A stretch of 64,000 nucleotides of DNA, from positions 1 through 64,000 of the forward strand of contig JAJPIQ010000083.1 of NCBI GenBank assembly GCA_021324685.1, written 5' to 3'. Made by a program: the position numbers and the translations under genes. The DNA comes from Bacteroidota bacterium (GTDB taxonomy: Bacteria > Bacteroidota > Ignavibacteria > Palsa-1295). Under the pieces are notes generated by a model, which did not search any database, had not been told where the DNA came from, and worked only from the letters and a program-made list of their open reading frames with translations. Numbering within the stretch: position 1 is the stretch's first letter; each line of letters begins with the position of its first letter. Below, piece after piece: positions 22,672 to 26,180 of the stretch.

Positions 22672-23108
22672 TTGGTCTGCTCCTTCTAATAGAAACGTAA
22701 TTCGATGAACGAAAGGATTCGGAGCAAAAACCGGGCAATCGAAAATGGGGACGAAAGCAAGCGGTTATAAAAGCCGAGAGGTTGATGCCCGAAGGCGAGT
22801 GTTTGGCTGGTCAAAAAAGTCTTTAAAAGAAATATAGACATTTTTGGATTTTCGGGAACTCGCCTGCATAAATTCATGAATAAATTCATCGACTTCATGA
22901 AAAATAATCCCCGCGCAAAAAATTTCTCCGGCTGAATTGAGAATTCGGGCAAATTTCGAAGATTCGTTGAGTACGCGACCTGAATTCCGGTGCGCGGGCA
23001 GCGACGAGACTGCATAAAATTTCTCTCTCAAAAAATATCTCGCCCGGAAGGGTCTCGTTTTCATAGTCGGAGCTGTAACTTCGGTAGCTGAAGTGTGTTT
23101 TTCCAGCA
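22672..23108. other. 437-bp divergent intergenic region, no gene supported
   Basis: This lies between the minus-strand epimerase gene and the plus-strand sigma factor gene. It is AT-richer than its neighbours. I see short inverted repeats (ATTCATGAAT near 22873; ACTTC/GAAGT near 23070-23090) and no convincing coding frame, so it probably holds both divergent promoters, including a sigma-dependent one. Confidence 0.5.
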
Positions 23109-23885
23109 ATGGCTTCGCGAACGATCGCTCCGCGGACGATGCAGCGGCATTCGACGACGATGTCGCCCGGGCTCGGGCGCGCATTGTCTTCGAATGGCGA
23201 TGGTGGTCCTGCGAGCGGGTCGGAGCCCCTTCCTTTGTTGCGCTCGCGGCCGCCGGAACCGGCGGCCGGCGTGGCGCCGCAATCGGTCGTGTCCCAGGTG
23301 GGTGGACCGCAGGACGGAGCGGTAACGACGCTCGCGAGTTTAGCGGACGTCGAGCTGCTCGAAGCGTTCCGGGCGCGGCATGACGAAGCGGCCTTTGCGG
23401 AGTTATATCGGAGGCACAAGGCCGAAATTTATACCTATTGCCTGCGCATGATGGCGGGCGATCGCGACAAGGCAAGCGACGTATTTCAGGAGGTCTTTAT
23501 CAAGGCCTTTGAGAAATCGTCGCAGTTCCGGGAAGGAACGAATGTCGTCGGCTGGATCTATATGATCGCGCGGAACCTGTGCCTGAATACGATCCGGAAC
23601 GAACGGCCGACCGAATCGCTCGACAGCCAGGAGACACTCGTCTCGATCGACCGGAGCCTCGCGCCGGAATACGACGAAGAGCAGCATTTTCTTCGCCGAA
23701 AGCTCGAGGAAGCGCTTGCCACGCTGCCCGTCGAGTTTCGAGAACCTTTTATCCTTCGCGAATTCGATGGATTTACCTACCGGGAGATTGCGGAAATGAC
23801 GGGCACGACGCTCGGCATGACGAAGGTCCGGATCTATCGGGCAAAACAGCGAATGCGCGAGTTGCTATCGCCGATGTTCGGATGA
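23109..23885 (+). CDS. ECF RNA polymerase sigma factor
   Basis: Sigma region 2 is at about residues 80-150 ('DEAAFAELYRRHKAEIYTYCLRMMAGDRDKASDVFQEVFIKAFE'), with 'GWIYMIARNLCLNTIRNER'. Sigma region 4 is at about 195-250 ('LATLPVEFREPFILREFDGFTYREIAEMTGTTLGMTKVRIYRAKQRMRELL'). The ~75 residues before region 2 are low-complexity Gly/Pro/Ser and unusual for ECF factors, so translation may begin further in, at a GTG near residue 64. It is followed 25 bp later by its likely anti-sigma partner. It should direct polymerase to envelope-stress or surface genes. Confidence 0.92.
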   Translation: MASRTIAPRTMQRHSTTMSPGLGRALSSNGDGGPASGSEPLPLLRSRPPEPAAGVAPQSVVSQVGGPQDGAVTTLASLADVELLEAFRARHDEAAFAELYRRHKAEIYTYCLRMMAGDRDKASDVFQEVFIKAFEKSSQFREGTNVVGWIYMIARNLCLNTIRNERPTESLDSQETLVSIDRSLAPEYDEEQHFLRRKLEEALATLPVEFREPFILREFDGFTYREIAEMTGTTLGMTKVRIYRAKQRMRELLSPMFG

Positions 23886-23910
23886 ACCTGCATTTGGAAC
23901 GGAGAAGTTT

Positions 23911-25308
23911 ATGATCGTGGAAGATAAAATTCTGGAATATCTGGACGGCTCGCTCGGCGAGCGTGAGAGCGCGGAACTGCTCGAAACGCTCGCGGCGAAC
24001 CCCGAAAAACGGGCGCTGCTCGAAGAGCACCTGCGCCTGAAGGACCTGCTCACGCTGGGAAGGAAACCGTTCCAGGTGCCGCTCGCCACCGAGCAGGCCC
24101 TGGCCGAACGGATCCCCATCTTAGGCCGTGCAAACCGCTTTTCGCCGTTCGGCATTGCCCGCGGCATGCGCGATTGGATCGGCGCGCGAATGATCGGCGC
24201 CCGCGCCATCGGCGCCGCCATGGGAGCCGGTGCGCTCGTCGTCCTGATCGGACTCGGGTGGTATGGCCATGCCACGCAGGAGACGACACCGGCGAAAACG
24301 TCGACCCTCGCTCCTTCGAACGTGGCTCCTTCGGCCGTTTCTCCTTCGAACGTGGCTCCTTCGGCCGTTTCTCCTTCGAACGTGGCCTCGACCCCTTCCA
24401 ATGTTGCCTCGGCTCCTTCGAATGTTGGCATGGCCCCTGCGAATATTACAAACGTTCCTTCTGCGAACGGTTTCGCTGGCGGCCGTGCAGGCGTTGGCAC
24501 TCAGGCGAGGGAACGTGTTTCGATCGCGGGAAATGCAGGGCATGCCGTGCGGGAAGCGTCGGTGCCGTTGGATGAGGCGTCAGCAACGAGCGGAACCGTT
24601 CCCAAGGCTCCGGCCGAGGCGGCGTATTCGATTTCATCGGTGCCGGAGGGCAGCCTTCGAACGCCTGCGATGGAAATTCCGAACGGGCATATTGCGCAGA
24701 CCATGCGCGAAATTGCGATGGGACCGCCGCGCGAAATGAGCCGGTTCTCCGCGGGCGCCTCTCTCATTCTCGATGAATCGTTCGCACCTTCCGTTTCGAC
24801 CGGCCCCTCGGGTGCGTTTTCGAAACCGATCGGCGATGCGACGCTCGATTACGATCTTAGTTCCAGCTTTGCCATCGGACTCGATCTGGGCGAAGCCAGT
24901 TCGGCCACGATCACGAATTCGCTCTCGAGGATGAATGCGCAGAACGATCTGACGCGCATTGCCGAGTCTTCGGTCATCACGTCGCAGACGATCGTCGATA
25001 TTCTTGCCACGGCCCATTTCACCCTCTTTGCGGAGAGCGAGCTTCCGGTGCGCTTCGGCATTGGCGCGGGCGAAGCGTTCGGTGCGGGACCCGTCGTCGA
25101 TGCGACGGCCGGAATTTCTCCCACGATCGCACCGGACCTCACGCTCGATCTTTCGGCCATCGCAAGCCGCGTCTGGACGAATGGGAACCCGCAGGTGCTG
25201 ACGCCCGCCGCCTCCGGCATCACCGGAATTGTAGGTGGCCAGAGCAGTGCGCGCTCGCTTTACACGACCGCCTTTGGCATCCGCGCCGGCCTTCGCATGC
25301 GCTTATGA
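23911..25308 (+). CDS. Anti-sigma factor with inner-membrane helix and C-terminal beta-barrel-like domain (dual-membrane type)
   Basis: The start has a ribosome site (GGAG) 8 bp upstream. Residues 1-75 resemble anti-sigma domains ('ILEYLDGSLGERESAELLETLAANPEKRALLEEHL') but lack zinc Cys/His. One TM helix lies at about 107-127 ('GAGALVVLIGLGWYGHA'). A long disordered linker with 'APSNV/SPSNV' repeats follows to about 270. The last ~190 residues alternate as beta strands ('VRFGIGAGEAFGAGPVVDATAGISPTI...AFGIRAGLRMRL'), like an outer-membrane barrel. This matches the dual-membrane-spanning anti-sigma architecture described in Bacteroides. Its start follows the ECF gene, and its stop overlaps the next gene (ATGA). 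Confidence 0.78.
   Translation: MIVEDKILEYLDGSLGERESAELLETLAANPEKRALLEEHLRLKDLLTLGRKPFQVPLATEQALAERIPILGRANRFSPFGIARGMRDWIGARMIGARAIGAAMGAGALVVLIGLGWYGHATQETTPAKTSTLAPSNVAPSAVSPSNVAPSAVSPSNVASTPSNVASAPSNVGMAPANITNVPSANGFAGGRAGVGTQARERVSIAGNAGHAVREASVPLDEASATSGTVPKAPAEAAYSISSVPEGSLRTPAMEIPNGHIAQTMREIAMGPPREMSRFSAGASLILDESFAPSVSTGPSGAFSKPIGDATLDYDLSSSFAIGLDLGEASSATITNSLSRMNAQNDLTRIAESSVITSQTIVDILATAHFTLFAESELPVRFGIGAGEAFGAGPVVDATAGISPTIAPDLTLDLSAIASRVWTNGNPQVLTPAASGITGIVGGQSSARSLYTTAFGIRAGLRMRL
24311..24430 (+). repeat. 15/30-bp tandem repeat coding for the anti-sigma linker
   Basis: Units of the form CTCCTTCGAACGTGG and CTCCTTCGGCCGTTT alternate as a 30-bp higher-order repeat, then degrade toward 24430. 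They encode the A/S-P-S-N-V and A-P-S-A-V steps of the periplasmic linker, so linker length could change by slippage without loss of frame. Confidence 0.85.
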
Positions 25309-26180
25309 AGCATGCGCTCTTGGAGCAGCCGCTTCGGAGGCGACCGCTTCCGAAGCGGCGTGAACGCCTGCGTTTTGCCATCGCCCTGATGTGCGGCGCA
25401 TTGCTCGCGGGATGTTCGCAGACCATCGGCGTTACCCCCCCGCCGCCGGCGGTCCCCAGCGATTTTTTCTGGCAGGCGCCGGCGCTCGCTTCGGGAATTA
25501 ATTATAGTATCCTGCGTAACGGCTCGGCGAGCGACCACCGGCTGACGTCCCAGGACGGCTCGCATATTCGCGATGCGGCGCTCGGGAATGCCGTCTCGAT
25601 GGTCGCCTTCGTGGGCCCGGATTCGGTCCTGCTCGACAGTATGGGAACGAACGCTCTCTTCAGCCTTCCGGCCGGATATTTTTTCGGTTCCATCGCGACG
25701 CAAACGCATTCGAGCGTTTTCCTTCGGGACTCGATCGTGCTGGACGTCCACATGGACAGCGTGAAACCCGATAGCGTCGTCTACGATACCGTGCGGGACA
25801 CGATAAGCCGCGATACGGTGACGGTCGTTCAGCAAGATACGAATACCGTGGAGGGCGGGCTCTTGCTGCTCTATGGATCGCATCTCGATTCCGGCGCGAC
25901 CTGGCTCGCCGGCAATCTCCTGGGCCCGGGCCTTGGAAGCGGCATTCCGATCTATGCCACCGTGCTCGACCGCATAGACTCACTGCTGATCCCACCGGCC
26001 GCCGCGGGCGCCGACAGCACGTTTGGGGAATCGTTCCGAATCCGTTATGCGGCGCCGACCGGAGCCCTGCTCCCCGTCTATTGGATCGCCTATTATAGTA
26101 AGGACGTCGGGCCGGTCCTGGTCCAGCAATATACGTCGGATTCGGTGATGGAGCGGGCCCAGATCCTCGGCCCTCCGTAA
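25305..26180 (+). CDS. Lipoprotein of unknown function, third gene of the sigma operon
   Basis: The ATG overlaps the anti-sigma stop (ATGA), so translation is coupled. The signal peptide has an extended basic N-region and lipobox 'GALLAGC' with Cys at about residue 36, followed by a Pro-rich spacer. The mature part has a hydrophilic stretch of Asp/Val repeats ('VLDVHMDSVKPDSVVYDTVRDTISRDTVTVVQQDT') and an Ig-like C-terminal region. No named domain is seen. Its place suggests it belongs to the envelope function sensed by the sigma/anti-sigma pair. Confidence 0.7.
   Translation: MKHALLEQPLRRRPLPKRRERLRFAIALMCGALLAGCSQTIGVTPPPPAVPSDFFWQAPALASGINYSILRNGSASDHRLTSQDGSHIRDAALGNAVSMVAFVGPDSVLLDSMGTNALFSLPAGYFFGSIATQTHSSVFLRDSIVLDVHMDSVKPDSVVYDTVRDTISRDTVTVVQQDTNTVEGGLLLLYGSHLDSGATWLAGNLLGPGLGSGIPIYATVLDRIDSLLIPPAAAGADSTFGESFRIRYAAPTGALLPVYWIAYYSKDVGPVLVQQYTSDSVMERAQILGPP

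Follow-up and report, generated by a model that had tools for sequence, protein, structure and literature searches.

The question raised by this locus is whether a single anti-sigma protein could physically join the cytoplasm to the outer membrane and, if so, whether it is one of the Dma proteins known from Bacteroides. One polypeptide linking the outer membrane directly to the machinery of transcription would be a very direct means of sensing the cell surface, and to our knowledge the only dual-membrane anti-sigma proteins to have been characterised are of the Bacteroides type. A sequence-only reading of the window (the whole 64,000-nucleotide stretch analysed, part of a 3.47-Mb draft genome) had proposed an operon of sigma factor, dual-membrane anti-sigma factor and lipoprotein, and all three open reading frames were found where it had placed them:

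23109-23885, + strand: ECF sigma factor gene, 258 aa, with Pfam regions r2 and r4 above cut-off
23911-25308, + strand: dual-membrane anti-sigma factor gene (predicted), 465 aa
25305-26180, + strand: lipoprotein gene, 291 aa, with lipobox LLAG-C

The ATG of the lipoprotein gene overlaps the stop codon of the anti-sigma gene as ATGA, which points to translational coupling. Four other species of the genus hold orthologues of all three genes (32-46% identity for the anti-sigma protein), and relatives adjoining a sigma gene were found in 23 of the 61 genomes searched, the own genome included, with one to seven matches per genome; the arrangement is therefore not a matter of chance. A sigma gene was adjacent to the anti-sigma homologue in essentially all loci. 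The named relatives are Kapabacterial, e.g. Candidatus Kapaibacterium, and the others are unclassified Bacteroidota or Ignavibacteriota metagenome-assembled genomes. The sigma factor itself matched Pfam Sigma70_r2 (3.7e-14) and r4_2 (4.8e-15), both above cut-off, after a poorly conserved N-terminal extension of ~75 residues; with regions 2 and 4 present and an anti-sigma gene adjoining, it was classed as an ECF sigma factor. The reading frames, the Pfam matches and the conservation in relatives thus bear out the proposed operon.

At least seven sigma/anti-sigma pairs are present in the own genome: the window pair, those on C44, C45, C75 and C42 (the last cut by the contig end), and two on C15, at 96-98 kb and at 90.5 kb. 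The anti-sigma protein of the 90.5-kb pair is a 251-residue form without a barrel. The barrel-less paralogue of 251 residues at L039:4384-5136 (- strand) has APSxVAPS-like tail repeats resembling those of the window linker.

The 465-residue protein was divided into the following parts:

23911-24126, + strand: cytoplasmic anti-sigma domain, residues 1-72, from conservation and profile matches
24205-24261, + strand: predicted single inner-membrane helix, residues 99-117, hydropathy 1.94, at the same position in homologues
24265-24741, + strand: predicted disordered periplasmic tether, ~159 residues (about 119-278), 51% P/S/T/A
24310-24444, + strand: in-frame 15/30-bp and 21-bp tandem repeats within the tether, from Tandem Repeats Finder
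24745-25305, + strand: predicted C-terminal eight-stranded outer-membrane beta-barrel, strands within residues 279-464, from AlphaFold2, Foldseek and strand alternation

Residues 1-72 are the most conserved part of the protein. Compared with the closest orthologue (L042), the anti-sigma domain is 82% identical, the linker 21% and the barrel 48%, as expected of two conserved ends joined by a spacer. When a profile of 41 such domains was compared with the PDB, six matches were obtained at E<=1, and anti-sigma factors were three of the best four: DdvA (0.063), RseA (0.091) and RsiW (0.43), individually weak values that are jointly consistent. The domain also matched the anti-sigma-E entry PRK13920 (E=3.8e-4), and among the 41 homologues zf-HC2 matched 23 (best 1.1e-5) and RseA_N six. 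The HxxxCxxC zinc motif is absent, there being no cysteine anywhere in the translated 465-residue protein. Domain similarity and gene pairing together suggest that the N-terminal domain holds the ECF sigma factor. An arginine-rich stretch precedes the helix at 99-117, favouring an orientation with the N-terminus inside.

The tether is the fastest-diverging part of the protein (12-21% identity between orthologues). In the homologues measured it has 112-274 residues, never fewer, with 36-51% P/S/T/A, and if extended would reach 38-93 nm. The sequence-only reading had described the linker as built of slippage-prone 15/30-bp repeats. The repeats are real: at 24310-24386 Tandem Repeats Finder gave a 30-bp unit in 2.5 copies with 100% matches. 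They are peculiar to the own genome, however, and are not conserved in orthologues, and all the units are multiples of 3 bp, so that a change in copy number would alter the length of the tether and not the reading frame. Phase variation by these repeats was ruled out on the same grounds.

For the C-terminal region the earlier reading had suggested a structure prediction, and AlphaFold2 was run on residues 238-465. Although the mean pLDDT was 69, lowered by loops and the N-terminal lead, and the alignment held six sequences, the model showed eight long strands (model positions 42-55, 65-78, 83-104, 113-135, 143-152, 157-165, 173-187 and 212-227), most at block pLDDT 85-93. In a Foldseek search of the PDB the leading matches were all outer-membrane barrels (OpcA, OmpA, NspA, Pla, OmpT, OprG, OmpW and FadL-type), the best nine having E-values of 1.5e-4 to 1e-3; TM-scores were modest (0.3-0.6, with NspA at 0.64 and OmpW at 0.53) and rmsd large. 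The C-terminal residue, counted on full proteins, was F, W or Y in 29 of the 41 full-length homologues, against a background of about 7%. Glycine stood at -6 in 68%, and position -3 was aromatic or large, which together make up an outer-membrane beta-signal. Residues of the strands alternated between apolar and polar more than in shuffled sequences (p=0.036). A second set of homologues, from other families of the class, has its parts in the same order and the same kind of C-terminal ending, and its barrel aligned with that of the window family at 99.5% in profile comparison; two sub-groups of the window family gave 99.8% for the anti-sigma domain and 98.5% for the barrel against each other. 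The suggestion that one polypeptide could join cytoplasm and outer membrane is thus well supported as a predicted architecture, by the helix, the tether, the barrel model, the beta-signal and the anti-sigma matches.

Other explanations of this protein had to be weighed. Anti-sigma factors most commonly take the form of an inner-membrane protein with a periplasmic sensor domain, and the window protein might be of this ordinary kind, with a soluble beta sandwich at its C-terminus; the window barrel indeed had no match in a Pfam search. This was the outcome that the earlier reading had set against its own proposal. The AlphaFold2 strands, the barrel matches in the PDB, the beta-signal and the strand alternation all disfavour it, and it is now very improbable. 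A second explanation accepts the barrel and holds that the chain is normally cut in the tether, so that barrel and anti-sigma domain act apart. FecR-type and other anti-sigma factors undergo processing, and proteases would be likely to attack a tether so long and disordered. On the other side, the tether is never shorter than 112 residues and the two ends stay fused in nearly all homologues, which suggests that their physical linkage matters; regular cleavage is considered quite unlikely.

It remains to ask whether the predicted membrane-bridging protein truly belongs to the Dma family of Bacteroides and has merely diverged from it, sharing an ancestor with it within the Bacteroidota. The order of the four parts and the three-gene layout are as in das2-dma2-DUF4943 (PMC13088901), and for comparison Dma2-like operons were retrieved via the DUF4943 gene of the dma2 operon, and then a wider Dma-like set. 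Whole-protein profile comparison of the window family with Dma (hhalign) gave 18% over 30 columns. The anti-sigma domains showed no similarity (profile probability 8.1%), and the barrels gave 37.9% over 30 columns. OMP_b-brl_2 was recognised in 16 of 18 Dma-like barrels, whereas an outer-membrane-protein model was found in one of 18 window-family members (OMP_b-brl, weak, 0.0041). A Dma2 search of the own genome and family gave no match, and direct homology to the retrieved Dma2-like operons was not detectable with the anti-sigma domain, barrel or whole-protein profiles. In an unrooted tree of 93 sigma factors, which has some long branches and in which ECF21 (Das) was represented by sigmas adjoining Dma-like genes, the Das sigmas and their Bacteroidia cousins formed one branch (SH-aLRT 100), and the window-family sigmas fell in the other, with some Bacteroidia sigmas of barrel-less pairs. 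Thus, although an ECF sigma gene is adjacent, the cognate sigma is not in the Das branch. A weak match between the barrel of the wider class set and that of Dma (48.7%, 126 columns, E 1.8e-4) would be compatible with remote common descent, but membership of the Dma family by descent is unlikely. The resemblance to the Dma-type architecture noted earlier therefore stands as analogy and fails as membership, since the profiles are dissimilar and the sigmas lie in separate, fully supported branches. Judged from sequence, the window protein is one that would work like Dma while differing from it in both homology and sigma factor.

The third gene of the operon encodes a protein with a signal peptide and a canonical lipobox, LLAG-C, at Cys 37. 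Of the 40 loci that could be assessed, 32 have a lipobox gene, recognised by pattern, at -23 to +79 nt after the anti-sigma gene, and inspection by eye added five (about 37/40); the loci that lack it belong mainly to one sub-group (L036, L072, L078). The claim that this operon adds a coupled lipoprotein is thus true and holds generally, but in Dma2-like operons too the third gene carries a lipobox-like sequence. Orthologues of the lipoprotein in sister genera and families are longer, about 500-560 residues, and the profile of the short form matched them as two separate blocks, interrupted near model position 120-125 by an insertion of ~300 residues. This insert gave sub-threshold matches to Vps10, BNR/Ycf48 and WD40 propeller models. 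It is absent from the window lipoprotein, and the genus lacks it in this orthologue. Long orthologues with the propeller-like insert were seen at L046:5436-7106, L048:5422-7065 and similar loci. The structure model of the lipoprotein was too poor to use (pLDDT 42).

A candidate promoter was found ahead of the sigma gene:

23074-23098, + strand: predicted ECF promoter TGTAACTTC-N12-GTGT, with TGTAAC at 23074-23079, GTGT at 23095-23098 and a spacer of 15

The upstream regions of five orthologous sigma genes align nowhere except at an invariant TGTAACTTC-N12-GTGTTTT, and each of the five sigma genes has its start codon 10-12 nt beyond GTGT (11 nt in the window). At the sequence level, therefore, the operon has an autoregulatory -35/-10 promoter. 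The exact motif occurs 4, 3, 2, 4 and 6 times in the five orthologue-bearing genomes (19 in all), in which the reversed motif, used as a control, has no sites. In 136 genomes of the class outside the family there were ten sites, or 0.07 per genome, about the number expected from base composition. Fourteen of the 19 sites are outside the operon itself, two of them without a sizeable reading frame nearby; most of the remainder lie upstream, usually by 10-40 nt, of a gene whose product is a lipoprotein, an outer-membrane protein or a secreted protein. One and the same lipoprotein has the motif in two species (L158 and L173), and an outer-membrane-protein-like gene has it in G003 and a one-mismatch version in the own genome. 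These counts are for the exact motif; a one-mismatch scan of the own genome added plausible sites, but the control rose to two. The one-mismatch site L178 is inside a primary sigma gene and was rejected as chance. The members of the predicted regulon mostly differ between genomes. The autoregulatory site and the co-occurrence suggest that TGTAACTTC-N12-GTGT is used by the window sigma factor.

The motif common to the operon and a few envelope genes was recorded at 23074-23098 of the window, with sites listed at G000:C24:6315, C44:71509 and C83:23054. Among the predicted targets, downstream of the motif at L161 and L156, are secreted proteins with C-termini that resemble type IX secretion sorting domains. 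The paralogous modules have variant promoters, CGCAACTT..GTGTTC, TTTGTAACCG..GCGTTT, CTGTGACTCTT..GTGTTA and TTGTAAC..GTGTC, each paralogous sigma sub-group (L035, L036, L054, L038 and relatives) having its own variant upstream. A natural reading is that these would be parallel channels, partly insulated from one another.

A mechanism can be proposed for the membrane-bridging protein. Its N-terminal domain would keep the ECF sigma factor at the inner membrane, which the single helix is predicted to cross, while the long disordered tether would cross the periplasm and the beta-signal would direct assembly of the eight-stranded barrel into the outer membrane. The lipoprotein, whose translation is coupled to that of the anti-sigma factor, is probably at the outer membrane and may be the sensor or gate of the barrel. 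Perturbation of the barrel, by a surface ligand or envelope damage, would then free the sigma factor. In the sigma-E system, unassembled outer-membrane proteins trigger cleavage of RseA; by analogy, the trigger might instead be failed assembly of the barrel, exposing the tether to a protease and so freeing the sigma factor. Once free, the sigma factor would act at TGTAACTTC-N12-GTGT promoters to transcribe the operon that encodes it and a few further genes, whose products are lipoproteins, outer-membrane proteins and secreted proteins. As the barrel has its own beta-signal, the idea that such a protein reports on outer-membrane assembly by its own fate becomes testable.

It is likely, therefore, that the operon is an envelope signalling module of three parts with a membrane-bridging anti-sigma factor. 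A literature search turned up nothing on anti-sigma factors of Kapabacteria, and the family, with its lipoprotein partner, looks like a second, apparently separate and undescribed lineage of anti-sigma factors of the dual-membrane kind. More tentatively, and with rather less than even confidence, dual-membrane anti-sigma factors may have arisen at least twice in the Bacteroidota. On this view they would form, in the Kapabacteria and related lineages, a large family of channels that run in parallel and whose promoters are partly insulated from one another. Each channel would typically consist of a sigma factor, a barrel-fused anti-sigma factor and a lipoprotein acting as sensor or gate of the barrel, and would control its own set of surface proteins. 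If there is indeed a second, unrelated-looking lineage in uncultured Kapabacteria, the design would be a favoured one and not a one-off; it would also be tied to a lipoprotein whose part as partner is open to experiment, and the promoter motifs would predict the targets of each channel.

Among known systems the closest in design are the Dma proteins of Bacteroides thetaiotaomicron, which combine an anti-sigma domain with a helix, a disordered tether and a barrel, and whose partners are ECF21 sigma factors (PMC13088901). Like them, the window protein is a single chain that is predicted to lead from an anti-sigma domain through one helix and a disordered tether to a C-terminal beta-barrel, and an ECF sigma gene lies adjacent upstream. 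It differs in its anti-sigma domain ('ILxYLDGSL..PEKR' in the window family against 'PDGLWEELEKEL' in Dma), in a barrel that is not recognisably homologous, in a sigma factor outside the Das branch and in its lineage, Kapabacteria; its genome has at least seven pairs, and its lipoprotein partner is near-universal and bears a propeller-like insert in sister genera. Among the Bacteroidia sequences, the protein at L147:1492-3132 (- strand) has a sigma factor fused ahead of its helix, its linker and its barrel, an arrangement described in Dma3. Four Bacteroidia relatives of Dma (L139, L143, L149, L150) keep the anti-sigma domain and helix and seem to lack the barrel, so barrels would have been gained or lost within that group.

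In Phocaeicola vulgatus the toxin BcpT induces the sigma/anti-sigma pair M0N98_03760-61 (PMC9308784), whose anti-sigma factor is likewise predicted to cross the periplasm and to have a barrel in the outer membrane; envelope stress induces the pair and its regulon alters the cell surface. It is of the Bacteroidales and is likened here by description, the sequence comparison having been made with the Dma-like set. In RseA-sigma E, RsiW-sigma W and DdvA an inner-membrane helix comes after the N-terminal domain that binds sigma, as is proposed for the window protein, but the periplasmic part of RseA is soluble and has no barrel; unlike zf-HC2-type domains, the window protein has no zinc ligands. 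In FecR/PupR and the TonB-dependent transducers an outer-membrane barrel likewise informs an ECF sigma factor through an anti-sigma factor, but there the barrel is a separate protein, whereas in the window it is fused to the anti-sigma factor.
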